A DNA stretch of 23,515 nucleotides from a virus. Position 1 is the stretch's first letter, and the number at the start of each line of letters is the position of its first letter. Made by a program: the position numbers and the translations under genes. The notes below the pieces were generated by a model, which saw only the letters and a list, made by a program, of their open reading frames with translations, was not told the origin of the DNA and did no database searches. The DNA is taken from IMG/VR virus record IMGVR_UViG_3300046009_008173, positions 1-23,515 of that record; one strand, 5' to 3'. Positions 4,915 to 23,460 of this stretch are shown one piece after another.

Positions 4915-5658
4915 ATGATACCATTATTTAAGTCTCATTATTCTTTAGGTAGGTCAATACTTACTCTTGAGGATAAAAGTGAAGCTGATGACTATCCAGA
5001 CTCAATAATACAAATAGCTAAAGAGAATAAATTAAGTGAGATCTTTTTGGTTGAGGATAATATGTCTTCATTCTTAGAAGCATATACTAATACAAAAAAT
5101 AATAATATAAAATTAAATTATGGATTAAGAGTATCTGTAACGGAATCAATTAATGATAAAAGCGATGAATCAAGACAAAAGACTTCTAAAATTATTCTAT
5201 TTTTTAAGAATAAAAAAGGACACGAATCATTAACTAAATTATTTAGTATTGCAGCTAAAAGTGGATTCTATTATGAACCAAGACTTGATTATGAAACATT
5301 AAAAAATAATTGGTCAGATAATTTAATTCTTTGTATACCATTTTATGATTCTTTTATATTCAATAATACGCTCAAAAATTATATATGTATTCCGCAATTT
5401 AATTTTACGAAACCAATAGCTTTTCTAGAAGATAATGATTTACCATTTGATACGATTGTTAAAAACAAGCTAGAAAAATATATAAAAGAAAATGCACTTG
5501 AACTTTTTAAAACTAAGAGCATTTACTATAATAAAAAATCAGATTTTAAAACTTACTTGACATTTCGATGCATTAACAATAGAAGTATTCTTAATAAGCC
5601 AGAGATCGAGCATATGTCAAGCAATGAATTCTGTTTTGAAAGCTGGTTATCAAAATGA
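4915..5658 (+). CDS. DNA polymerase III alpha, separate N-terminal PHP-domain fragment
   Basis: A 247-residue protein matching the N-terminal PHP region of DnaE. It opens with MIPLFKSHYSLGRSIL where DnaE has FVHLHVHSEYSLLDG, continues with IAKENKLSEIFLVEDNMSSF (DnaE: LTDHGNMYGA) and LNYGLRVSV (DnaE: IIGCE), and ends SNEFCFESW, like the end of the PHP domain just before the palm. The His-x-His, Asp-His and final Glu of active PHP domains are missing (FKSH, ED at 47-48, GLR at 70-72), so phosphoesterase activity is unlikely. The palm, fingers and OB part is encoded separately at 6954-9548. Together they total about 1111 residues, a full DnaE length. Its probable role is structural, assembling with that subunit. 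No intein sequence is seen. The stop overlaps the next ATG. Confidence 0.75.
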   Translation: MIPLFKSHYSLGRSILTLEDKSEADDYPDSIIQIAKENKLSEIFLVEDNMSSFLEAYTNTKNNNIKLNYGLRVSVTESINDKSDESRQKTSKIILFFKNKKGHESLTKLFSIAAKSGFYYEPRLDYETLKNNWSDNLILCIPFYDSFIFNNTLKNYICIPQFNFTKPIAFLEDNDLPFDTIVKNKLEKYIKENALELFKTKSIYYNKKSDFKTYLTFRCINNRSILNKPEIEHMSSNEFCFESWLSK

Positions 5659-6757: not shown

Positions 6758-6973
6758 ATGGCATCATTAGATGATATTTATGATATGGTTCAGAAATTAG
6801 ATAATTCTAATATAGAATATCTTTTAATTACAATTCAAAAAGGCAAAAAGAATGGTAAAGCAGATGTTTTTTATTCTTTAAAAGATAGAAATTCAATGAA
6901 GATATTAACTCATGGATTGAATCAATTTACAAAAGAAATAGATAGGCTAGAGGATGAAGGAAAATTTGAATAA
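6758..6973 (+). CDS. hypothetical 71-residue protein in the polymerase operon
   Basis: A short protein not recognised. Predicted pattern: a helix (SLDDIYDMVQKLD), strands (EYLLITIQKG; ADVFYSLKDR) and a charged C-terminal helix (LNQFTKEIDRLEDEGKFE). The ATG lies two bases after the exonuclease stop, with AGAGG upstream, and the gene overlaps the polymerase gene by 20 bases, so translation is coupled. Its position between exonuclease and polymerase hints at an accessory role, but nothing in the sequence shows this. Confidence 0.6.
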   Translation: MASLDDIYDMVQKLDNSNIEYLLITIQKGKKNGKADVFYSLKDRNSMKILTHGLNQFTKEIDRLEDEGKFE

Positions 6974-9548
6974 TATTTTAAACGATAAAGACTTCTCATC
7001 TAAATTTGATAATTTAGATTTAGGATTGCATGGCGTTAGACTTCCAGAGTTTAGCATTGAGTCCTCAACAAAAAGACACCTCAATCTTAGTGAAGATGTT
7101 TCGAATTATGATTTTCTTAGAGCTTTAGCTTTGAATGGGTTTAAAGATCTAAAAATAGATAAAAATCTACCAGAATATAAAAAATATGTAGATCGTGCTA
7201 AATATGAGCTTGAAACACTAAAAGAGCTTGGATTTATTGATTATATTTTACTTGTATGGGATGTTATTAACTTTTGCAAGATGCATAATATTCCAGTTGG
7301 TCTTGGTAGAGGTTCAGCCGCTGGATCTCTAATTCTGTACCTTGTAGGAGTCACAAGGATCGATCCAGTTAAATATAACCTTTATTTCGAAAGATTTATA
7401 TCCAAGATTCGAGCTAAAAAGCAGGTTGTTGATGGAATAACCTATCTAGATGGTAGTTTAATGTGTGACGTAGATCTTGATATTTGTTATTATAATCGTC
7501 ATAAAGTATTAGAATATCTAGAGACTAAATTTAAAGGCAAAACTAGCAAGATTTTAACGCTTAATACTCTTAGCGGTAAACTGCTAATAAAAGAATGTGG
7601 TAAGATTATTGGTGAAAAGACAGAGGAAGAAATGACTACAATATCGTCTTTAATTCCAAAAATATTTGGTCAAGTAAAAGATATTACAACTGCATATGAC
7701 GAAGTATCTAAATTTAAAGAATGGTGCGATGAAAATAAAGAGATATATCAAATTGCTCTAAAGCTAAGAGATTTAATTAAAAATAAGGGTGTTCATCCAT
7801 CTGGAGTTTTGTTATCTTATGATGATCTAGAAAAAGTATGCCCAACAGAATTTTCTTCTGATAAAGAACCAGTCTCAAGTTTTGATATGAATTGGGTAAG
7901 CCTATTTAATATTAAATTGGATATCTTAGGCTTAAGAAGCGTTTCTGTTGTAGATGATGTCTGTAAAAATATTGGAATAAAAGTTCAAGATATTGATCTG
8001 AATGATGTATCAATTTATCAAAACCTTCAAGATCTAAAATCTCCACATGGACTATTTCAGATTGAAGCAGATACGAACTTTAAAGTCTGTCAAAAAGTAA
8101 AGCCTAAAAATCTCGAAGAACTTAGCGGAGTTTTAGCTCTAGCAAGACCAGGCGCATTACAATTTGTTGATAAGTATGCCAAGTATACAAACACAGGTGA
8201 TTACGAAGGTATTCATCCATTTTTTGATGATATCTTAAAGCAAACTGGTGGCGTTGCTCTTTATCAAGAGCAGTTAATGCAAATGGCACATAAAATTGGT
8301 TTTGATCTTGATGAAGCAGAAATCTTAAGAAGAATTGTAGGTAAAAAGAAAATCGATGAGATTAAATCTTGGCAAAAGAAGATTGATGCAAAAATAAAAC
8401 AAAATAAATTACCAAAAGAAGTCGGTGAAATCTTATGGAAAATTATGGAGGATTCCGCAAATTATTCATTTAATAAATCACATTCACTAGCTTATGCGGC
8501 ATTGGCAGCGGTAACAATTTACTTAAAATTTAATTATCCTCAACAATTCTTTTTATCTCTATTGAAGATGAGCAGAAATGAGCCAGACCCAATTGGTGAA
8601 ATTTCTAAGATTCAGAAAGAGATGCATGAATTTGATATTCAACTTTTGCCACCTCATATTATTAAATCAGCAATGGATTTCTCAATTGAGGAAAAAGATA
8701 TAAGATTTGGTCTACTATCAATTAAAGGCATTTCAGATAAATCAATAGAAAAATTAAATAGCTTTAGAAATAAATACTCAAATAAGTTTGAGATATTCCA
8801 AGCCGCAGAAGAAGCTGATCTAAATATTGGAGTATTATCTGCATTAATTCAAGCTGGCGCATTAAGTGGATTTAATCAATCTAGAAGTAAAATCGTACTA
8901 GAAGCACAGCTTTGGAATATTTTAACTTCAAAAGAGAAAAAATACGCCATCTCATTTGCCGAGAAATTTGATTATGATTTAATTAAAATTATTAAACATT
9001 TAAATAAATTTACTGACGAGAAGAATCATGTCGTTATTAAAGAGAATAGACTAAAGACTATTAAGAATAAATATGAACCATATCTACAGATATATAATCA
9101 AAATAGTAAAAGCGAAAGTTTCGCAAATTGGTATTATGAAAAGAAGCTTTTAGGATATACATATAATAAGTCATTAAAAGAAATATTCTCAGAGAAGAGA
9201 GAAAATCTAAAATATATATGCGATATTATTGAAGAGCCAGTTAATTCAAAAATAGCTTATGTTGGTCAAATTGAAGATGTCTTTACTGGGGTATCAAAAA
9301 ATGAAAAGAAAACTAGATATGTTAGACTAAAAATATCTGATGAAACCGCCTCAATGAATGTTTTGATATTTAATGATAATATTGAAAATAATAAATTATT
9401 AAATAATAAACCTTTTGAAGAAGGAAATATAGTTATAGTTAAAGGCTTAAAGAAAGATGATTGTATATTTGGAGATCTAGTCGCTATTCAAGATCAACAG
9501 ATATACATGAAACTAAATGATCTAAAGAAAATTGATAAAAATAATTGA
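6954..9548 (+). CDS. DNA polymerase III alpha, catalytic body (palm to OB fold) without PHP domain
   Basis: The polymerase subunit, 864 residues, in the order of DnaE from its palm onward. Visible are LPEF and YELETLKELGFIDYILLVWD; the palm GLGRGSAAGS (116-125); the catalytic pair in CDVDLDIC (Asp174, Asp176) and third acid in LDILGL (Asp323); LFQIEADT; LARPGALQ; ALYQEQLMQMA; FNKSHSLAYA (from 506); a helix-hairpin-helix near RFGLLSIKGISDKSIEKL; and a C-terminal OB fold (VGQIEDVFTGVSKNEKKTRY onward). All polymerase acids are present. Nothing before the LP-F segment resembles PHP; that domain is the separate product of 4915-5658. The ATG overlaps the previous gene. No intein signature is seen at the N-terminus. 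Confidence 0.93.
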   Translation: MKENLNNILNDKDFSSKFDNLDLGLHGVRLPEFSIESSTKRHLNLSEDVSNYDFLRALALNGFKDLKIDKNLPEYKKYVDRAKYELETLKELGFIDYILLVWDVINFCKMHNIPVGLGRGSAAGSLILYLVGVTRIDPVKYNLYFERFISKIRAKKQVVDGITYLDGSLMCDVDLDICYYNRHKVLEYLETKFKGKTSKILTLNTLSGKLLIKECGKIIGEKTEEEMTTISSLIPKIFGQVKDITTAYDEVSKFKEWCDENKEIYQIALKLRDLIKNKGVHPSGVLLSYDDLEKVCPTEFSSDKEPVSSFDMNWVSLFNIKLDILGLRSVSVVDDVCKNIGIKVQDIDLNDVSIYQNLQDLKSPHGLFQIEADTNFKVCQKVKPKNLEELSGVLALARPGALQFVDKYAKYTNTGDYEGIHPFFDDILKQTGGVALYQEQLMQMAHKIGFDLDEAEILRRIVGKKKIDEIKSWQKKIDAKIKQNKLPKEVGEILWKIMEDSANYSFNKSHSLAYAALAAVTIYLKFNYPQQFFLSLLKMSRNEPDPIGEISKIQKEMHEFDIQLLPPHIIKSAMDFSIEEKDIRFGLLSIKGISDKSIEKLNSFRNKYSNKFEIFQAAEEADLNIGVLSALIQAGALSGFNQSRSKIVLEAQLWNILTSKEKKYAISFAEKFDYDLIKIIKHLNKFTDEKNHVVIKENRLKTIKNKYEPYLQIYNQNSKSESFANWYYEKKLLGYTYNKSLKEIFSEKRENLKYICDIIEEPVNSKIAYVGQIEDVFTGVSKNEKKTRYVRLKISDETASMNVLIFNDNIENNKLLNNKPFEEGNIVIVKGLKKDDCIFGDLVAIQDQQIYMKLNDLKKIDKNN

Positions 9549-9581: not shown

Positions 9582-10115
9582 ATGATATCATTTTATAAAC
9601 CAAATAGTAAAAATACAGGTACAGCTTGTAGTTTCAGCGTCAATGCAAAAGACGGGTCAATATGGAGTTCTTTGATAAAGCAAAGTTCATGGAACGAAGG
9701 CACAAAAACAGGATCATTTTCCGATAATAAAGATAATCCACAAAAAAGTGCAAGAATTAAATTCTCTCCAACAGAAGTCGCTGGTTTACTAGAAACCCTA
9801 GATAAAAATACAGAATTTTCAGCATACCACTCATCCGAACAACAAATAACTAAAATTAAATTTGCACCTTATATAAAGGATGATAAACAAGTTGGTTTCT
9901 CATATAGCGTTCAGAAGGAAAGCAAAGATAATATTGAAAATAAACAATCATACCTAATAGGCTTCTATTTTAATGAAGCGAGATTATTGAAAGAATTTTT
10001 ACAATATTCACTATCATCTATTTTTGATTCGCAAAGAGTAGAAATGATTAAGAAGATTAAAAATTCTTCAAAAGAGAAAACCTCAGAATCACAAGAAGAT
10101 AGCGAACTTTGGTAA
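9582..10115 (+). CDS. possible ssDNA-binding protein (function uncertain)
   Basis: A 177-residue protein with a beta-rich N-terminal two-thirds (ISFYKPNSKNTGTACSFSVN; SIWSSLIKQSSWN; ARIKFSPTEVAGLLETLD; AYHSSEQQITKIKFAPY; GFSYSVQK), a helix (EARLLKEFLQYSLSSIF) and an acidic tail ending EDSELW. A compact beta domain plus an acidic tail with a terminal aromatic residue is the layout of phage ssDNA-binding proteins, and the Lys/Trp/Tyr content and position next to the polymerase fit that. I do not recognise a named family, so this is inference. The gene is first after its own promoter and is followed two bases later by the glycosyltransferase. Confidence 0.4.
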   Translation: MISFYKPNSKNTGTACSFSVNAKDGSIWSSLIKQSSWNEGTKTGSFSDNKDNPQKSARIKFSPTEVAGLLETLDKNTEFSAYHSSEQQITKIKFAPYIKDDKQVGFSYSVQKESKDNIENKQSYLIGFYFNEARLLKEFLQYSLSSIFDSQRVEMIKKIKNSSKEKTSESQEDSELW

Positions 10116-10117
10116 TT

Positions 10118-12031
10118 GTGAGAAAGAAAAAGATCTTATTTCAAAGCGATTTCTCTTTGGCTAAGACTGGCTTCGGTAGAAATGCTAGAGCTTTGTTAAA
10201 ATATTTATACTCTACAGGTAAATATGATATAGTACATTACTGCTGTGGAATGACTTGGGATCATCCAGAATTTAAAAAGACTCCATGGAAATCACTTGGA
10301 TCACTTCCTAATAACCAACAAGAATTAGAACAATTAAATCGAGATCCAAATTTAGCTAGGATGGCAAGTTATGGAGCGCATTTCTTAGATAGAGTTATAA
10401 ATGAAGAAAAACCAGATGTATATTTCGCTGTTCAAGATATATGGGGAGTAGATTTCGCAATTGATAAACCTTGGTTTAATAAAATCGCTTCTGCTATATG
10501 GACAACTCTAGATTCTTTACCAATACTTGATTCTGCTATTAAAAATGCTCCTAGAATTAAAAATTATTGGATTTGGAGTAATTTCGCAACAAAAGCCTTA
10601 CATAAACTCGGATATAGCCATGTAAAGACTGTTCACGGATCTTTAGAAGATAAAGATTTCTATAGATTATCAGACTTTGAAAGAAATCAATTGAGAAAAA
10701 AGAATAATATTCCACAAGATGCTTTTGTAATAGGATTCGTATTTAGAAATCAACTTAGAAAAAGCGTACCCAATCTTTTACAGGGATATAACCTTTGGAA
10801 AAAGCAAAATCCAGAGATTAAGAATACATATCTACTATTACATACCCATTGGGGCGAAGGGTGGAACATACATAAATTAGCCGCTGAGATAGGAGTAAAT
10901 CCACAAGAGATATTAACAACTTATGTATGTAAAAATTGTGGAGAATATGAAGTAAAAAATTTTACTGGACAAGACTTAAATTGTAAATATTGCGGTGCAG
11001 AAAAAAGTCAAACAACTACAAATGTTGCACTAGGAGTAACAGAGGCTCAATTAAATGAAGTATATAATTTAATGGATGTATATTGCCATCCATTTACTAG
11101 CGGTGGACAAGAGATACCTATTCAAGAAGCAAAACTAGCTGAGTTGATAACACTTGTTACGAATTATTCTTGTGGAGAAGAGATGTGTGAACCAGAGGCC
11201 AACTCATTAGCTTTAGAATGGGCAGAGTATAGAGAGCATGGTACGGAATTTATAAAAGCCTCTACCTCTCCAGAATCAATAGCAAAACAATTGAATATTG
11301 TATATAAAATGCCAGAACATAAGAGACTTGAAATGGGTAAAAAGGCTAGAGAATGGACAATTAAAAATTTTGGAGTTAAAAATGTAGCTAAAATTCTAGA
11401 AGATTTTATAGATTCGCAACCAACAGTAGATTGGGAAAAGATTAAAGAGAATGTAGAGGATAAGAAAGATCCATATTTTCAAATCCCTAATATTCTTGAC
11501 GATGCTGAATGGCTAACATTTATGTATCATAATATCTTAAAGATGAAGAATATAGATAGAAATGATTCTGGCCACCAATATTGGATGGGCGAATTAAGTA
11601 AAGGTGCAAAAAGGCAAGATATTGAAAATTATTTCAGAAATGTAGCTTTACAAGAAAATAATAAATCTAAAGAAATAAAATTTGAAGATCTTCTTGATCC
11701 TAATGATAAGGGAAGAGTAATCTATGTAATGCCAGAAAGTGCTGGAGATATATTTCTAAGTACAGCTTTATTTAAATCTATAAAAAATAGATATCCAGAA
11801 TATAGTTTATATGTTGCAACAAAACCTCAATATAAAGATATCTTAGAAGGTAATCCCTATATTCATAAATGGATCGAATATAATCCTATCATGGATAATC
11901 TTATTTGGTTAGAAGGAAATAATCAGCATAATGGTCATTTTGATATTGCTTATCTACCCTATACATGCACTCAAAGAAATCTAAACTATCTACATAATGG
12001 ATTAGATAAACTAGATTTTAGTTTAAGTTAA
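10118..12031 (+). CDS. GT4-type glycosyltransferase with zinc-ribbon insert, fused to the N-terminal half of a GT9 domain
   Basis: A protein of about 637 residues. Residues 1-430 follow the GT-B fold of GT4 enzymes: KKILFQSDFSLAKTGFGRNA, VIGFVFRNQLRKSVPNLLQGY, and the donor-site segment SGGQEIPIQEAKLAEL. Inserted before that segment is a CxxC-x14-CxxC zinc ribbon (Cys271, 274, 289, 292). The last 100 residues (RVIYVMPESAGDIFLSTALF; KNRYPEYSLYVATKPQY; EGNPYIHKWI) match the first Rossmann half of GT9 heptosyltransferases, whose second half is in the next gene. It would transfer sugars from nucleotide donors; the acceptor (virion protein, host glycan or DNA) is unknown. GTG at 10118 is preferred; a TTG at 10109 would overlap the previous gene. 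Confidence 0.75.
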   Translation: MRKKKILFQSDFSLAKTGFGRNARALLKYLYSTGKYDIVHYCCGMTWDHPEFKKTPWKSLGSLPNNQQELEQLNRDPNLARMASYGAHFLDRVINEEKPDVYFAVQDIWGVDFAIDKPWFNKIASAIWTTLDSLPILDSAIKNAPRIKNYWIWSNFATKALHKLGYSHVKTVHGSLEDKDFYRLSDFERNQLRKKNNIPQDAFVIGFVFRNQLRKSVPNLLQGYNLWKKQNPEIKNTYLLLHTHWGEGWNIHKLAAEIGVNPQEILTTYVCKNCGEYEVKNFTGQDLNCKYCGAEKSQTTTNVALGVTEAQLNEVYNLMDVYCHPFTSGGQEIPIQEAKLAELITLVTNYSCGEEMCEPEANSLALEWAEYREHGTEFIKASTSPESIAKQLNIVYKMPEHKRLEMGKKAREWTIKNFGVKNVAKILEDFIDSQPTVDWEKIKENVEDKKDPYFQIPNILDDAEWLTFMYHNILKMKNIDRNDSGHQYWMGELSKGAKRQDIENYFRNVALQENNKSKEIKFEDLLDPNDKGRVIYVMPESAGDIFLSTALFKSIKNRYPEYSLYVATKPQYKDILEGNPYIHKWIEYNPIMDNLIWLEGNNQHNGHFDIAYLPYTCTQRNLNYLHNGLDKLDFSLS

Positions 12032-12033
12032 TT

Positions 12034-12039
12034 TATCAT
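12034..12039 (+). promoter_or_regulatory. weak -10-like element before the GT9 C-terminal gene
   Basis: TATCATAATAAAATGAG at 12034-12050 matches 16 of 17 bases of the element at 13212-13228, which belongs to a good promoter. TATCAT lies six bases before the ATG at 12046. No convincing -35 lies 16-18 bases upstream (CTAGAT at 17), so this is a weak candidate. Confidence 0.35.
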
Positions 12040-12045
12040 AATAAA

Positions 12046-13197
12046 ATGAGACTATTAGATACTTACGCAACAAATACAGGATCAAAAATAGATAAACCTT
12101 TTATTTATACCAAATTTTTTCCCCTTCCTCTTGGTAAATTTATTACATTTCAAGCTCAGACTCCATATGACTCTAGAAATTACTCATATTGGCAAGAAGT
12201 TATAAATCTTATTCATCCGATCTTAAGTAAAAATAATATCCATATCGTTCAAGTTGGAACGAAAGATGAAAAGACATTTAATGGTGTCATAAATCTATTG
12301 GGTCAAACCACTATTAATCAAGTAGCTTATGTTGTTGAGAATGGAATTTTACATTTTGGCGCTGACAGCTTTTGTGTTCATCTAGCCTCTTATTTCAATA
12401 AGCCAATTGTTTCTATCTATAGCATAAGTAATCCTAATGTTGCAGGACCCCATTTTGGTGATAAGAATAAACATGTATTGTTAAAAGGATACGAAAGAAT
12501 TGGAAATAAAAAACCATCATATTCTCAAGTAGAAAATCCTAAATCTATAGATACAATAAAACCAGAAGAAATAGCCGCTGGAATCCTAGATCTTCTTGAG
12601 ATAAAGTATTCTAATTTTCCAGAATCAATCCATTTTGGAACAGATTACAATGTAAAGAGTTTTGAGGTTATACCAGACGAGATAATTGATCCTAATTCGA
12701 TACCTGTAGAAAACCCTATTATAAGAATGGATTATTCTTTTAATGAAAAAGCCCTTGAACAGATACTATCAGTAAAAAAATGTATTATTTTCACAAATAA
12801 ACCTATTAGGAAAGATATAATTCAAAAATATAGAAAAAATATCAATCAATTAATTTATATTATAGATGAATCAAATAATATTAATTTTGTTAAACTCTTA
12901 AAGAATAATTCTATTAATTATGTTCTACTATCTTTCTTAGATGAAGAGATTTTAAATAAATATAAAATAGACTATATGGATTATAATCTTATAGTTAATA
13001 GAAAGCATAAGACTAAAGCGGATACAAATATTCAACAAGTAGAAAATTTACATTACAAGTCCTCTAGAACATTGTATTCTTCAAAGGGTCAATTCATATC
13101 AAGATATGATTGGATTAATAATACTGGAAATAAAGTTGTAGATGATCCAGATTTTTGGAAAGAAGTAGATAATTTTTATATTTTTAAATTGACTTAA
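12046..13197 (+). CDS. GT9 glycosyltransferase C-terminal half with an unknown C-terminal domain
   Basis: A 383-residue protein. Residues 25-185 look like the second Rossmann half of GT9 (heptosyltransferase) enzymes: KFITFQAQTPYDSRNYSYW, IHIVQVGTKDEK, LLGQTTINQVAYVVENG, LHFGADSFCVHLASYFNKP then IVSIYS, and PEEIAAGILDLL. The GADSxxVHLA segment is the usual donor site. Residues 200-383 are unfamiliar, with a Rossmann-like KKCIIFTNKP and YKSSRTLYSSKGQFISRYDW near the end. The missing N-terminal half is at the end of the preceding gene in a different frame, 14 bases away. The pieces may assemble into one enzyme; alternatively this is a decayed fusion, although both frames are clean. Confidence 0.65.
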   Translation: MRLLDTYATNTGSKIDKPFIYTKFFPLPLGKFITFQAQTPYDSRNYSYWQEVINLIHPILSKNNIHIVQVGTKDEKTFNGVINLLGQTTINQVAYVVENGILHFGADSFCVHLASYFNKPIVSIYSISNPNVAGPHFGDKNKHVLLKGYERIGNKKPSYSQVENPKSIDTIKPEEIAAGILDLLEIKYSNFPESIHFGTDYNVKSFEVIPDEIIDPNSIPVENPIIRMDYSFNEKALEQILSVKKCIIFTNKPIRKDIIQKYRKNINQLIYIIDESNNINFVKLLKNNSINYVLLSFLDEEILNKYKIDYMDYNLIVNRKHKTKADTNIQQVENLHYKSSRTLYSSKGQFISRYDWINNTGNKVVDDPDFWKEVDNFYIFKLT

Positions 13198-16865: not shown

Positions 16866-17414
16866 ATGGCTAGTATTTATGATACAGTTTTAAGCTGGAG
16901 TGCAGCTACAACATACAATAAATATAATATTGTACTAGGTAGTGATAATAGGTACTATTACTCTATTATTGATAATAATGTTGGAGCAGGAAATAATCCA
17001 ACCACGCTCTCTAATCTAGGAGTAGATTGGGATGGATATATATCATTAAATGGAAATCTAATACCTGATTTTTGGTGGAAACCATCGTATAATGCTAAAA
17101 TAGATAACAAGCCAAGAATAAGATATAACCAATTTGGTAATGGATATCAACAAAGAATACCAGATGGTTTAAATACAAGCCTTGTTGAATTTAATTTAAC
17201 TTTTGAAAATAGAAGCGAATTAGAGACTGTATCCATCTTACATTTCTTAAAGCAAAGAAATGGTCAAGAAAGTTTTATATATAACCTACCAACAATATAT
17301 TCAAAATCTTCGGATAATTTAAGCACAAGATTTATATGTCCAGAATGGGGTTCATCTTATATTTCATATAATAATTATACAATAGACTGTAAATTTATCG
17401 AAGTTCCAATATAA
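16866..17414 (+). CDS. minor tail protein, lambda gpM-like, with N-terminal carbohydrate-binding-like module
   Basis: A 182-residue tail-tip protein. Residues 70-182 match the gpM family: RIRYNQFGNGYQQRIPDGLN, LTFENRSELETVSILHFLKQ, GQESFIYNLPTIYS, RFICPEWGSSYISYNNYTID then CKFIEVPI. Lambda gpM is about 109 residues; the extra 70 at the N-terminus (SWSAATTYNKYNIVLGSDNR, YYYSII, then GVDWDGY) have the Trp-x-Y-x-V-YY-W spacing of CBM5/12-type modules. It would join the tail tip at the distal end of the tube. AGAGG at 16851-16855 precedes the ATG. It leads the plus-strand cassette M-L-K-I-J. Confidence 0.75.
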   Translation: MASIYDTVLSWSAATTYNKYNIVLGSDNRYYYSIIDNNVGAGNNPTTLSNLGVDWDGYISLNGNLIPDFWWKPSYNAKIDNKPRIRYNQFGNGYQQRIPDGLNTSLVEFNLTFENRSELETVSILHFLKQRNGQESFIYNLPTIYSKSSDNLSTRFICPEWGSSYISYNNYTIDCKFIEVPI

Positions 17415-17422
17415 TATAATTT

Positions 17423-18814
17423 ATGCCAACTTCTTCAGAAATATACAACTTAATTGTAAGTGGTTCAAAATCAATAAATTCTGAATTATTGTCACTAACC
17501 CCATCAACACCAATATACCTTTACGAAATAGATCTATCTCAAATTGCGCCAACCACAATTAACTACAATTATAATGGCGAACAGCCAATGAATAATGGTA
17601 TATACAGAATATATAATGATTATAATCTTTATAAAATTATAAATAATCAATATGGTACATTAAAATGGCAAGGAAATTTTTATTATCCATTTCCAATTCA
17701 AGCAGAAGGTTTTGAGTTTAATTCAGCAGGTACATTACCTACACCAAAACTTACAATTGGAAATTTTTCTCCAGACGGATCAAATAATTCATTTTATAAA
17801 TATATTAGGATGCAAATGCAGTCATTGGGCGATATTGTTGGTTCAAAATTTACTAGAATTAAGACATTTCTAAAATATATAGATGGATCAAATTTCTCTG
17901 GTAATGTAAACCCATTTAATCCACAGACTGGAATTTATGAAGTACAACTTCCAAGTGATATATACTATATTGATAGAAAAAGTTTAGAAAATAAAAATAT
18001 TATTCAATATGAACTTGCATCTATTTTGGATGTAGAAAATATTACATTGCCAGGAAGAACAATCTTAGCAAAAAAATGCCCATTTCAATATAGAGGAGAA
18101 GGTTGTTGTTATGAATACAATTCTAGACTAACCGCTTTACATAGCGGAGTCTATGCTTATGTAGAGAATTCTCCTATTTCAGTAAAAGGTCTACAAACCG
18201 CACCTCCAGTTGCAACTGATAACAATCAATTATTTATTGGAAGTATTTTTAGAACAGGAGATCCAGCAGGTAGAACTGCAATCTTTAGAATTACTGGAGG
18301 TCTAGGTAATTCTGGATCATGGCAAACTAATGCAAACTATACATCCGGAGATTTTGTTTATTTAACTAATAATAATTTAAAATTTTATTATGTATGTATT
18401 CAGCCACACACATCAGATATATTTAATGGCCCTCCAAGTGTTAATTATTGGACTGCAGATTCTTGCGCTAAAGAAATAAGCTCTTGTAGATTAAGATGGT
18501 TAAAAAATCCAGCATTTCGCCCTGTTATTTGGCCAACAAATAGAGGCGGAGAAACATGGCAAGCTTTCTATGAAAAATTACATGCTAGCGATGGTCTACC
18601 TGGATATCCAGTTTTATACACTCAATATGAAGTAGATACTCAATTTTTAACTGGAGTAAATGGAGTTCCTGTCTTTTATCCAAGAAGACCTGGCGCAGAA
18701 AATCCAATTTCAGAACAATCTCATGGAATTCCAAAAGATGCAAGTGGAAATTATCTAAATGGATATCTACCATTTGGGGGATTCCCTGGAACAAGCAATA
18801 CATCATCTGTATGA
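17423..18814 (+). CDS. tail-tip protein, lambda gpL-like iron-sulfur protein with internal inserted module
   Basis: At 463 residues this is twice lambda gpL (232). The N-terminal part has YLYEIDLSQIAP, FPIQAEGFEFNSAGTLPTPK, LTIGNFSPDG, TRIKTFLKYIDGSN and YYIDRKSLENKNIIQYELAS, all gpL-like, then LPGRTILAKKCPFQYRGEGC. Cysteines 219 and 228/229 and, after a gap of about 119 residues, 348 and 355 (DSCAKEISSCRLRW) correspond to the two cysteine pairs that hold the 4Fe-4S cluster in gpL relatives. Residues 299-346 within the gap resemble a CBM5/12 module (SWQTNANYTSGDFVYL, FYYVCI, NYW). The C-terminus adds about 100 residues rich in Gly/Pro. It overlaps the next gene as ATGA. Confidence 0.8.
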   Translation: MPTSSEIYNLIVSGSKSINSELLSLTPSTPIYLYEIDLSQIAPTTINYNYNGEQPMNNGIYRIYNDYNLYKIINNQYGTLKWQGNFYYPFPIQAEGFEFNSAGTLPTPKLTIGNFSPDGSNNSFYKYIRMQMQSLGDIVGSKFTRIKTFLKYIDGSNFSGNVNPFNPQTGIYEVQLPSDIYYIDRKSLENKNIIQYELASILDVENITLPGRTILAKKCPFQYRGEGCCYEYNSRLTALHSGVYAYVENSPISVKGLQTAPPVATDNNQLFIGSIFRTGDPAGRTAIFRITGGLGNSGSWQTNANYTSGDFVYLTNNNLKFYYVCIQPHTSDIFNGPPSVNYWTADSCAKEISSCRLRWLKNPAFRPVIWPTNRGGETWQAFYEKLHASDGLPGYPVLYTQYEVDTQFLTGVNGVPVFYPRRPGAENPISEQSHGIPKDASGNYLNGYLPFGGFPGTSNTSSV

Positions 18815-19536
18815 TAGATAAAAAAATAAAAAATTTTATTCGCGCGGAATCTATAAAAAACTCGCCAAGAGAGTCATGCGGATTTATAGTCGAGAAAGAT
18901 AATAAAATATCATGCGTCAAAACAAAAAATATTGCAGAAGATCCAATATCTTATTTTCAAATTTCAGCTATAGACTTTCTTCAAACAAAAAAACAATATG
19001 ATAATATATTATATGTCTATCATAATCATTTAAGTGAAAATTTTGATTTTAGTGAACTAGATATTTTAACTTCAGACAATCTAAATATACCTTTATTATT
19101 GTATATTTTTAAAGATGATTCTTTTAAAACATATTATCCAACTTCCTTTAAGAAAGGTTATACTGGTAAATGTTTTAAGATTAAAGAAAATGATTGTTTT
19201 ACTTTTATAAAAGAATATTTTCTAAATGAATTTAATATAAACATACAACCAATTACAGAAAATTACTCTAATAGAATAGAGGCCCAAAAGATACTGGATG
19301 AAAATTTAAAATTAAATTTTCTAGAAAAGAATGGTTTCTATAAAGTTGAAAATATGCAAATATTAGAAAATAATGATATACTTCTAATATCAACTAGATT
19401 CGGAAAGCATTTTGCTATATACATAGGTAATAATAAAATTATACATCAACCTATATTCGGTTTCTCAAAGATTGAAAATTATTGTAATTTTTATAGAAGG
19501 CATACGGTGTCAGTTTATAGGAGAAAAGCATGGTAA
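18811..19536 (+). CDS. tail assembly protein, lambda gpK-like (JAMM metalloprotease plus NlpC/P60)
   Basis: A 241-residue two-domain protein. The JAB/MPN domain has Glu21 in SPRESCGFIV and the JAMM site HxHx7SxxD (His71, His73, Ser81, Asp84) in YHNHLSENFDFSELD. The NlpC/P60 domain has the catalytic Cys129 in ENDCFTF, His200 in GKHFAIYIGNNK and a polar His212 in IIHQ. All key residues of both domains are present, so it is probably active. In lambda-type phages gpK acts at tail-tip maturation, and its peptidase domain can open peptidoglycan during DNA entry. The ATG overlaps the gpL stop. Confidence 0.85.
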   Translation: MIDKKIKNFIRAESIKNSPRESCGFIVEKDNKISCVKTKNIAEDPISYFQISAIDFLQTKKQYDNILYVYHNHLSENFDFSELDILTSDNLNIPLLLYIFKDDSFKTYYPTSFKKGYTGKCFKIKENDCFTFIKEYFLNEFNINIQPITENYSNRIEAQKILDENLKLNFLEKNGFYKVENMQILENNDILLISTRFGKHFAIYIGNNKIIHQPIFGFSKIENYCNFYRRHTVSVYRRKAW

Positions 19537-20300
19537 AGGTAACTCTACATGGAAGACTAGGTGAAGAGTTTAATTCCGAATGGGATCTAGAAGTAACTAG
19601 CGTCGCGGAAGCTTTGAGAGCTATTGAAGCTAATACTAGAAAATTTAGAAGATGGCTTATTCAAAATAAAGATATATTTGCATATGAAATATTAGTTAAT
19701 CAAACTAATTTATTTTCTGAGCAACCAAATTTAGACTCTCTAGAAGATATAAAAAATTCTGAAATTTGTGTAGATTTTAAAGATAAATTACAAACAATAG
19801 ATATTGTTCCCGTTATAATTGGGGCAGATTTTTTATATAAACCAATAGCAAAAATTCTAATTGGTGCAGCTGCAGTTATTGGAGCGATTGCATTAGGAGT
19901 CTTCACGCCATTTCTCTTACCAGCAGTAGCTCTTGGAATAGCTGGTTTGGGACTTATCGCTGCTGGTACAAGTCAATTATTATCAAAACCTCCACCAAAT
20001 GTTCCATTTAATGCACAGCAAGTTGATCCTATTGACGGCACTGAAGGTGGAGCAACTTCATATTTATTTAATGGTCCAGTAAATACAGTTGGAGAAGGTG
20101 GTCCTGTTCCTGTAGGTTATGGGGAACTATTGATTGGTGGAAATAATGTTTTTGCTAATTATGATGTATTATATAGGGCATACAAGAGCGATTTTAATTC
20201 AACAACTTTACAATACTCTCTTGAAGGTACAGATAGCTACGTCTTTAATTCAAGAGGGTTCTTAATAAGTCAACAGCCTTCTTTCGTAGAACCGGTATAA
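19530..20300 (+). CDS. tail assembly protein, lambda gpI-like
   Basis: A 256-residue protein like lambda gpI (223). The N-terminal 95 residues form a ubiquitin-like domain (VKVTLHGRLGEEFNSEWDLE, TSVAEALRAIEANTRKFRRW). Then a long hydrophobic Ala/Gly-rich stretch at about 104-155 (ILIGAAAVIGAIALGVF, LLPAVALGIAGLGLIAAG) could insert in or pass a membrane. The C-terminal part has YLFNGPVNTVGEGGPVPVGY then GELLIGG, the family signature. AGGAG at 19519-19523, six bases before the ATG, is a good Shine-Dalgarno site. The gene overlaps gpK by seven bases. Lambda gpI is needed for tail-tip assembly but is not found in the mature virion. Confidence 0.85.
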   Translation: MVKVTLHGRLGEEFNSEWDLEVTSVAEALRAIEANTRKFRRWLIQNKDIFAYEILVNQTNLFSEQPNLDSLEDIKNSEICVDFKDKLQTIDIVPVIIGADFLYKPIAKILIGAAAVIGAIALGVFTPFLLPAVALGIAGLGLIAAGTSQLLSKPPPNVPFNAQQVDPIDGTEGGATSYLFNGPVNTVGEGGPVPVGYGELLIGGNNVFANYDVLYRAYKSDFNSTTLQYSLEGTDSYVFNSRGFLISQQPSFVEPV

Positions 20301-20304
20301 TTTT

Positions 20305-23300
20305 ATGGGAAATCCAAATAGATTTGCAGAGGGAATGGATAATATTTTATTTCCAGCAAATATTGGATATAGTTTTTGTGGTTATAATTTTCCAGAAAGT
20401 ATTGCACAAGATCTTGGATCTTTAAGTTTATCTTTTTCTGGCGAAAGAATTCCATTTAGTACAGCATTAACTTATGGATATGGATATGGACCAAGTGGAT
20501 ACGACTCTGATTGGACACAACTTCAAACCTTAAGCGATAGATTCATCTATCCATTTTTTTGGGATGGTACTAATGAATTTACAGCTTCTGGATTAGATCC
20601 AAACACGCCAGATTTAAATAGTATATTTCCTCCTGGAGATTTTAAAACAGAAGCGCAAAGAGCATTTACTTCTATAACAACTATAGAGACTCTAGATCTA
20701 ATCTCTGAAGGACCAATCGAAGGATTTGTATCTGGTTTATATATTCCAAATCTTAGCGGTAAAACAACTGGAGATATTGGATATACAAGCGTAACTTTTC
20801 AACCATACGAACAAACATATTCTAATCCAGAGACAAGATCAATTTATTGGGATGATACACCAATCACAGATCTTCAAGGATTCTTTAACTTCCAATACGC
20901 AAACTATAGATTTACATATGGAGAAAAAACAAATGATCATACAGTATATAATCCATATTTAAATTTATATGAGAATAGATATAATTATTTTGGTCGCCAA
21001 GTAGATCAGAATAAGATACCGCTTGAGACATCAGTAACAAGAGCGATAAATGAAAGATTATATGGAGCCTATCTAATTAGTGGCAATTTCTTAAGATATT
21101 ATCCAAAAACATATTATGTATATAATACCGAAGTATCTGCTCTAAAAATTAATATTAAAATTAATGGTCTTTATGAGCAAATACTGTCTGGAAGTAATGC
21201 TGGAGATATAAACAGAAAAGCCATAGAGACAGTCTTTGTATTATATAGGCTTCTAGATGATGGAACAGTTATTCCTCTTGATACTTCAAAATATGCTCCA
21301 TACATAGCTGATATTTATTCTAAAGATTCAGTTTATGTTAATGGTAAAATTAGTGGACCAGTTATATTTACGTATCAATTTAATATTAGACCATACTCAG
21401 AAAATCAACCATTCTTTCCATTATTCCCTAACCAAATTGGTTGGGTGCTAGATATATATAGAACAAGTTTAGAGGGAATTGGGGCTTCTAATCAAGCGTC
21501 AACATCAGTTGATAGTATAACTGAAGTTTATTCCGATAGATTTGTATATCCAGATACTGCAATGGTATGGTCTAAATTTGATGCAAGATATTTTGGTAAT
21601 GTTCCTTCTAGATCTTATAAAGTAAGGCTTCTAAAAGTTAAAGTACCAGTTAATTATGATCCTATTGCAAAGACATATACTGGTCCTTGGAATGGAAAAT
21701 TTAAAGTAGCGTGGACAGATAATCCTGCTTGGTGTTTCTATGATATAGTAACGAGCAATCGTTATGGTCTAGGTAAATATATTGATCAAGCTTTAGTAGA
21801 TAAATGGACGCTATATGAGATTGCACAATATTGTGACCAATTAGTTTCAGATGGATTTGGTGGGCTTGAACCTAGATTTAGATGCAATGTTTTAATATCA
21901 ACAAAAGAAGAAGCATATAAAGTACTTAATGATATGGCGAGTGTATTCAGGGCTATTATTTACTATGCAGCAGGTCAAATTGTAGTTAGTCAAGACTCTC
22001 TTAAAGAGCCAGTATATCTATTTAATAATAGCAATGTCATTGATGGAATATTTAATTATTCTGATGCATCAAAGAAATCTAGGAGAACAGTTGCTCTAGT
22101 AAGATATAATGATGAGAATAATAACTATAAGCCTGGAATTGAATATGTAGAGGATAAAACTTCTGTATTAAAATATGGAATAAGAGAAACTGAGATTGTA
22201 GCTTTTGGTTGTACTAACAAAAATCAAGCCAGAAGAATTGGTAAATGGCTCATAGTTACAGATAATACAGAAACAGAAACTGTTGATTTCCAAGTTGGAT
22301 TAGAAGGTAATTATGTTAGACCTGGCGATGTTATCCTAGTTTATGATCAAGATAGAAAGAATCAAGTCTATGCAGGTAGAACATTAGAGCTAACTACTGG
22401 ATATGCAGTTTTGGATGTACCTTATAATACTTATAATAATTTTGCAATTACTGGCGTAAATAGTGGATTTAATTTTACTATCGTAACACCAACCTATAAT
22501 CTAGAGTATGGCACAACTTTAGGCGATTTATACTATACAGGATTCTCAGATGTTACATCTAGCGGAATAACTGGACTAAATAGTTCTTTCTATAATAGAA
22601 GCCATATACAAACTATTTCAATTAATAATCCTACAAATTATTTAACTAGCGGAAGTGGTATATATAGTAATAATGTAAGATTACTATTTCCTAGTGGGCT
22701 TAATACTGGATCTTATGATTTATATCAAAATACAGTATGGACAATAGATATTAATCCTAATCAATATAACGTAAATCAAGGTTTAGAAATTAGATCTGAG
22801 ATTAATAACCCATCAAATATTGCCTATCCTGGATATTATCTAGAACCATATTTAAATGAAGTTAAAAAATATAGAATATTAAATATAACCGAGTCTGAGA
22901 ACTCTTTATTCAATATATCAGCCTTAGAATATAATGATCAGAAATATAATGATATAGATAATATTGCTACATTAGTTAATGTGCCAGTAAGACCTGCGCT
23001 TCCACAAACTCCATCATTATTTTTAAGCGGAATATTTAGAAACCCAACTACGAATTCATATTGCGTTACATCTCCATGCAATGGAACGATATATACTACG
23101 AATCAAGGTGGAATTAATAGCATATTATACAATATAATACCTCCAGCTAATAATACTAGTAATTCCTTGTATTATGTATATGTTAAATCTGGATCTAACT
23201 TTACAAGTGCAACTACAGAATCTGTATATCTAAAAGATGTTATAAGTTCAGTTCTATTAAAAACGGGTCTTAGTGCAACAGACTGGATAAATGGAAGTAT

Positions 23301-23460
23301 TCCACAATTTCTTACTCCATTATATACTGGAGCATACTATTTTAGAGTATTCGCAGAGAATACGATAGGAGAAAGATCATCTCCAGCCACCGGACTATAT
23401 ACATTAACAAATCAGGCTTCAGTCTTTAGCGTAATAGCTTCTGGAAATAATATATTTTAA
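20305..23460 (+). CDS. tail-tip central/receptor-recognition protein, lambda gpJ-like
   Basis: At 1051 residues this is close to lambda gpJ (1132). The conserved gpJ core begins with ETLDLISEGPIEGFVSGLY (about 128-146) and SIYWDDTPI, and continues with FGNVPSRSYKVRLLKVKVPV, WTDNPAWCFYDIVTSNRYGL, DGFGGLEPRFRCNVLIST, YYAAGQIVVSQDS, NNYKPGIEYVEDK and EGNYVRPGDVILVYDQDRKN. The C-terminal 150 residues include a fibronectin III-like end (GAYYFRVFAENTIGERSSPA). Residues 1-115 are Gly/Tyr/Phe/Pro-rich and have no counterpart at the short lambda N-terminus. It caps the tail and contacts the host receptor. TATAAT sits three bases before the ATG, without a -35 or Shine-Dalgarno site. Confidence 0.9.
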   Translation: MGNPNRFAEGMDNILFPANIGYSFCGYNFPESIAQDLGSLSLSFSGERIPFSTALTYGYGYGPSGYDSDWTQLQTLSDRFIYPFFWDGTNEFTASGLDPNTPDLNSIFPPGDFKTEAQRAFTSITTIETLDLISEGPIEGFVSGLYIPNLSGKTTGDIGYTSVTFQPYEQTYSNPETRSIYWDDTPITDLQGFFNFQYANYRFTYGEKTNDHTVYNPYLNLYENRYNYFGRQVDQNKIPLETSVTRAINERLYGAYLISGNFLRYYPKTYYVYNTEVSALKINIKINGLYEQILSGSNAGDINRKAIETVFVLYRLLDDGTVIPLDTSKYAPYIADIYSKDSVYVNGKISGPVIFTYQFNIRPYSENQPFFPLFPNQIGWVLDIYRTSLEGIGASNQASTSVDSITEVYSDRFVYPDTAMVWSKFDARYFGNVPSRSYKVRLLKVKVPVNYDPIAKTYTGPWNGKFKVAWTDNPAWCFYDIVTSNRYGLGKYIDQALVDKWTLYEIAQYCDQLVSDGFGGLEPRFRCNVLISTKEEAYKVLNDMASVFRAIIYYAAGQIVVSQDSLKEPVYLFNNSNVIDGIFNYSDASKKSRRTVALVRYNDENNNYKPGIEYVEDKTSVLKYGIRETEIVAFGCTNKNQARRIGKWLIVTDNTETETVDFQVGLEGNYVRPGDVILVYDQDRKNQVYAGRTLELTTGYAVLDVPYNTYNNFAITGVNSGFNFTIVTPTYNLEYGTTLGDLYYTGFSDVTSSGITGLNSSFYNRSHIQTISINNPTNYLTSGSGIYSNNVRLLFPSGLNTGSYDLYQNTVWTIDINPNQYNVNQGLEIRSEINNPSNIAYPGYYLEPYLNEVKKYRILNITESENSLFNISALEYNDQKYNDIDNIATLVNVPVRPALPQTPSLFLSGIFRNPTTNSYCVTSPCNGTIYTTNQGGINSILYNIIPPANNTSNSLYYVYVKSGSNFTSATTESVYLKDVISSVLLKTGLSATDWINGSIPQFLTPLYTGAYYFRVFAENTIGERSSPATGLYTLTNQASVFSVIASGNNIF

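Follow-up and report, generated by a model that had tools for sequence, protein, structure and literature searches.

The window analysed here is a 23.5-kb contig (23,515 nucleotides), IMG/VR virus record IMGVR_UViG_3300046009_008173. ORFs and family matches define a row of five tail genes in the order M-L-K-I-J, the same as in phage lambda (Table 1). The second of these genes encodes a homolog of the lambda-type hub protein gpL. Its product matches the Pfam family PF05100 (Phage_tail_L) with an E-value of 3.1e-32 (112 bits, above the curated cut-off of 25) and phrog_18 with an E-value of 4e-47, and phmmer aligns it with the solved lambda gpL (PDB 8iyk_L; E = 5.7e-14); PF05100 is matched by all 39 members of the set of full-length relatives as well. 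A full-length structural model built from 39 sequences (pLDDT 61.6) was good only for the HDI domain, where residues 25-206 superimpose on residues 11-160 of 8iyk_L, the best match (Z = 12.8, rmsd 3.5, 141 residues). The family matches, the fold and the neighboring genes uphold the gpL-like identity proposed in an earlier reading made from the sequence without database searches (hereafter, the sequence-only reading), and the reading frame used there was right: the Cys219 codon begins at position 18077, and Arg356 ends at 18490. A match to the Pfam Clenterotox family inside the HDI domain (E = 0.0015, below the cut-off, in 4 of the 39 members) was judged spurious. A search for close relatives in bacterial genomes found none.

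Table 1. Features of the tail gene row and of the gpL-like protein (window positions)
Feature	Positions	Strand	Basis
gpM-like distal tail protein, N-terminal extension of ~68 aa	16866..17414	+	PF05939 at residues 69-180, E 4.7e-21
gpL-like tail-tip hub protein, 463 aa	17423..18814	+	PF05100, phrog_18 and 8iyk_L matches
HDI tube-like domain, about residues 24-200	17492..18022	+	model match to lambda gpL
First cysteine pair, Cys219 and Cys228 (CPFQYRGEGC)	18077..18106	+	both invariant in 74 relatives
Insert 1, residues 229-347, between the cysteine pairs	18107..18463	+	spacing 120, compared with 22-23 in canonical gpL
CBM5/12-like module, residues 294-347	18302..18463	+	pLDDT mostly 85-95; top structural matches are chitin-binding domains
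Second cysteine pair, Cys348 and Cys355	18464..18487	+	both invariant in 74 relatives
Insert 2, residues 356-447, before the C-terminal LPFGGFPG motif	18488..18763	+	few residues here in canonical gpLs
gpK-like protein (JAB + NlpC/P60)	18811..19536	+	NLPC_P60 E 1.8e-6; phrog_30 E 2.8e-38
gpI-like tail assembly protein	19530..20300	+	phrog_32 E 1.6e-34
gpJ-like central fibre protein	20305..23460	+	PF13550 E 2.3e-24; phrog_31 E 1.9e-144

Upstream of the tail genes, two adjacent genes encode glycosyltransferase-like proteins of groups 1 and 9 (10109-13197). Elsewhere in the window, the DNA polymerase III alpha subunit appears to be split into a PHP-domain ORF (4915-5658) and a polymerase ORF with alpha, finger and HHH domains (6954-9548), between which lie three small ORFs, one of them encoding an exonuclease-like RNase_T protein.

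Cys219, Cys228, Cys348 and Cys355 are invariant in the 39 aligned full-length relatives (50-72% identical), in which Cys229 and Cys325 vary, and the same four cysteines are invariant across 74 aligned C-terminal regions, including those of canonical short-loop gpLs. The sequence-only reading had left the choice between Cys228 and Cys229 undecided; conservation in both alignments selects Cys228, and position 229, occupied by C, V, L or I among the relatives, drops out. The cysteine spacings in the window gpL are 9/120/7, compared with 9/23/7 in lambda gpL (Cys173, 182, 205 and 212; PMC10721106), which bears out the proposed gap of about 119 residues between the pairs against 20-25 in lambda. 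By analogy with solved relatives, the window gpL would hold a 4Fe-4S cluster; the stretch of the model that contains Cys219 and Cys228 has pLDDT values below 50.

Within this expanded loop, the sequence-only reading had pointed to a CBM5/12-like pattern at about residues 299-346. None of the 39 aligned relatives lacks the corresponding module, in which Trp300, Tyr306, Gly309, Tyr322 and Trp343 are invariant (Tyr306 and Trp343 belonging to the core) and the mean pairwise identity is 0.613; such conservation excludes chance as the source of the pattern. The Pfam family CBM_5_12 (PF02839) matches the whole protein with an E-value of 0.004 and the module alone with an E-value of 0.00035 (21 bits), both scores lying below the curated cut-off of 26.2 bits, and phmmer detects the chitin-binding domain of chitinase A1 (PDB 1ed7; E = 0.0023). 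A profile of the module gave no significant match to PDB sequences. In a second model, covering residues 196-463 and built from 74 sequences (mean pLDDT 74.9), most of the stretch 256-345 has pLDDT values of 85-95. The best structural matches of the module are the chitin-binding domains of Vibrio chitin oligosaccharide deacetylases (Z = 4.4, rmsd 1.1 Å, 47 residues). This Z-score is low as such, but a domain of this size would not be expected to score much higher. Phage tail fibres or tailspikes are in the same list, as are chitinase C (2d49) and chitinase A1 (1ed7). Foldseek ranked thirteen chains of this kind at the top (probability 0.90-1.00, E-values of 0.016 or more), and the matches in a viral structure library are proteins annotated as ChiA1-BD or CBM5/12. 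The pattern noticed in the sequence is backed by conservation, by a Pfam score below the cut-off, by the phmmer match and by a separate fold match, and the insert, which could have proved to have a fold unrelated to carbohydrate-binding modules, is predicted to have a CBM5/12-like fold. Because the sequence support is weaker than that from the fold and lies below the curated cut-off, we use the label CBM5/12-like and stop short of assigning the module to the family.

The alignment of the module segment CIQPHTS with CLQPHTS of chitinase A1 places Gln327 on Gln679. Gln679 and Trp687 of chitinase A1 are reported as involved in chitin binding, according to the title of a work cited in PMC8449059. 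Phe334, which is Phe in 36 of the 39 relatives, probably lies at or next to the Trp687 position, judging by the equal spacing to the last Trp. With the Gln679 equivalent kept and Phe334 at or near the position of Trp687, a glycan-binding surface on the module is plausible.

To assess the spread of the loop insert, which the sequence-only reading had proposed to look for in gpL homologs, IMG/VR was scanned twice, with 334 and 324 relatives matched and the best 80 of each set examined. Among the best 80 of 334 and of 324, the loop gaps of insert-bearing relatives are of two classes, one of 118-129 and the other of about 258-270. Each of the 80 distinct ORFs recovered with the module is a gpL: the four-cysteine pattern, with a gap of 118-129 or 259-270, is matched by 74 of them, visual inspection shows these cysteines in another five, and the last is truncated at its 5' end. 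In the longer-loop class, an extra domain of about 140 residues is placed before the CBM5/12-like module; this domain has weak Pfam matches to F5/8 type C or galactose-binding domains (E = 0.0003-0.013, below the cut-offs), and its best PDB profile match is an alpha-N-acetylglucosaminidase family protein (E = 0.0031). The gap is 22 or 23 in distinct canonical gpLs (S-H1 query) and 22-23 in 8 of 10 other cultured phage gpLs, the remaining two being S-CBS4, with 261, and HJK1, which falls outside the motif. When the loop was left out and a tree was built from the gpL core, a fully supported branch separated the insert-bearing gpLs from the others; the bootstrap of this tree had not fully settled. 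The insert itself, when searched in cultured phages, gave weak matches only (E = 0.2 or worse, coverage at most 61%).

Several gpL relatives depart from these layouts. In two divergent module-bearing relatives (L322 and L326), the N-terminal half of gpL is longer by about 330 residues. The long insert of the gpL relative of Klebsiella phage HJK1 (L355:721-1989) lies in the N-terminal half and not in the cysteine loop, and the gpL relative of cyanophage MED4-184 (L094:2483-3055), 190 residues long, stops before the cysteine domain.

The window gpL has a second insert, absent from the sequence-only reading, that extends the distance between Cys355 and the C-terminal GGF motif to about 90 residues, compared with a few in canonical gpLs. 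A Pfam search of insert 2 gave no match. It contains the most variable stretch of gpL, residues 372-419 (18536-18679), with a mean pairwise identity of 0.395 compared with 0.61-0.95 elsewhere in the protein; the cysteine segments are at 0.80-0.85. If gpL encodes specificity, judging by this variability, residues 372-419 would be a better candidate than the module. In three relatives (L068, L069 and L071), insert 2 is longer by about 170 residues, and Pfam found no match in the L068 copy. Upstream of gpL, the N-terminal extension of the gpM-like protein (16866-17069) is conserved in relatives and displays a conserved W-Y-IV-YYS-P-W pattern reminiscent of CBM5/12. As a second CBM5/12 copy it was rejected: Pfam support is confined to 1 of 30 members, and the module profile misses the extension.

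Taking these features together, we consider it most likely (probability of roughly 0.6) that the module has an auxiliary role, providing weak multivalent glycan contact that assists receptor binding. In this reading, the loop, closed at its ends by the four-cysteine domain, would have turned into a place where added domains are displayed. The loop of this lineage carries the module with its predicted CBM5/12 fold, preceded in a subgroup by an added F5/8-type-C-like domain. Given the threefold symmetry of the hub, three copies of the module would ring the outside of the tail tip, with both the trimeric assembly and the outward position taken from solved relatives. Through several weak contacts at once with envelope or capsule glycans of the host, such a ring could help the tip to locate the cell surface and stay on it while the specific receptor is bound by gpJ or the fibres. 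Outward display of the module at the tail tip is plausible because the iron-binding domain of lambda gpL sits on the outer surface of the tip (PMC10721106) and the oligosaccharide-binding domain of related hubs occupies the same place.

Both sugar binding by the module and its part in adsorption are what we infer, and several observations weigh against the glycan-binder reading. The module scores lie below the curated Pfam cut-off, and the module profile gave no significant PDB match. At 61% mean pairwise identity, the module is fairly conserved, whereas a specific receptor binder would be expected to change fast, and Phe stands in for Trp687, a key residue of chitinase A1. CBM5/12-like tail domains could be purely structural, and two of these observations, a module moderately conserved rather than hypervariable and Phe at the Trp687 position, would fit one that braces the tip against gpJ, the gpM ring or side fibres, having kept the CBM5/12 fold and lost sugar binding. 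The similar fold in a contractile injection system baseplate protein (7b5h_AE, Z = 3.2) also favors bracing, which we nevertheless hold to be rather unlikely, given that the Gln679 equivalent is retained in the window copy, that related hubs use this site for a domain named oligosaccharide-binding, and that a subgroup has gained a lectin-like second domain.

In RcGTA-type baseplates, fibres attach near the hub. The location of the module on the hub, near the fibre attachment in related baseplates, would suit an attachment point at the tip for side tail fibres or for some other protein of host recognition, with the module itself not touching the cell, and the most variable stretch lies in the adjacent insert 2, as could be the case for an adaptor surface. 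However, no fibre partner was identified in the 23.5-kb contig, and the fold of the module is that of a glycan binder, which makes anchoring improbable. The sequence-only reading further suggested that binding might be linked to the redox state of the cluster. Nothing in the sequence or in the literature found links cluster state to binding, and redox coupling is without support. It is very improbable that the iron-sulfur cluster acts as a switchable clasp, its assembly or loss altering the presentation of the module and coupling surface binding to tip opening. Also very improbable is a coupling of cluster state to glycan binding: both ends of the insert are tied to cluster cysteines, but the cluster motif is retained in many gpLs whose loop is short.

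The preferred reading, auxiliary glycan contact from a displayed module, can be set beside several known systems. Lambda gpL (PF05100; 8iyk) shares with the window gpL the HDI domain, the pair spacings of 9 and 7 and the M-L-K-I-J gene order, but has a pair gap of 23 residues and lacks the second insert. The CBM5/12 modules (1ed7, 2d49 and the Vibrio deacetylases) share the predicted fold, the core aromatic residues and the Gln679 equivalent; in contrast, the window module scores below the Pfam cut-off, has Phe at the Trp687 position and sits inside a tail-tip protein.

RcGTA and roseophage R4C already provide examples of tail hubs whose iron-sulfur domain contains a sugar-binding-like domain. 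In the RcGTA hub Rcc01696, ion-binding segments 143-167 and 250-263 flank an oligosaccharide-binding domain, 168-249 (PMC7296036), and in the R4C hub vBDshSR4C_014, segments 142-161 and 244-266 flank the inserted domain 162-243 (PMC10276861). As between Cys228 and Cys348 of the window gpL, the iron-binding domain of these proteins is split in two by the inserted domain; however, they belong to another hub family, and their insert (6tba, 8gtc) is described as resembling an insertion domain of the LKA1 tailspike and not CBM5/12, the closest fold to the window module. The general architecture is also known in the upper baseplate protein of JBD30 (Cys147, 156, 238 and 245; PMC11445458), which has the same pair spacings of 9 and 7 and a gap of 82, although its insert is of another kind and its metal site is putative.

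A further parallel is gp36 of the cultured cyanophage S-CBS4 (L353:1456-2853), a PF05100-type gpL core with cysteines at 166, 175, 436 and 443 and a gap of 261 (258-276 in its metagenomic relatives). Its insert of about 240 residues, with helical-looking flanks, lies in the same cysteine loop but is unrelated to that of the window, and a Pfam search of it gave no match. In a small tree, the S-CBS4-type gpLs group among short-loop gpLs, apart from the clade of the window. Two independent gains of a loop insert in gpL are therefore the simplest reading, the deep forks of this tree being weak (75/72). As far as our searches of the open-licence literature show, what is new is the presence of such an insert in a lambda-type gpL, its CBM5/12-like and sometimes F5/8-like nature, its breadth in uncultured phages, and the independent use of the loop by S-CBS4-type gpLs.

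The role of the gpL iron-sulfur cluster has been described as still uncharacterised (PMC10721106). Because two separate gpL lineages and the hubs of RcGTA, R4C and JBD30 all bear domains between the same cysteine pairs, we suggest a simple role for the cluster: by fixing the two ends of a surface loop, it would allow domains to be added there with the hub left intact. The analysis offers a defined, testable site and a mobile set of adhesion modules in widespread uncultured phages. Given that other phages and gene transfer agents hold different domains at this place, the cysteine loop looks like a recurrent site for the display of adhesion domains, occupied in the window gpL by a CBM5/12-like module and in the RcGTA and R4C hubs by a domain described as similar to an LKA1 tailspike insertion domain.
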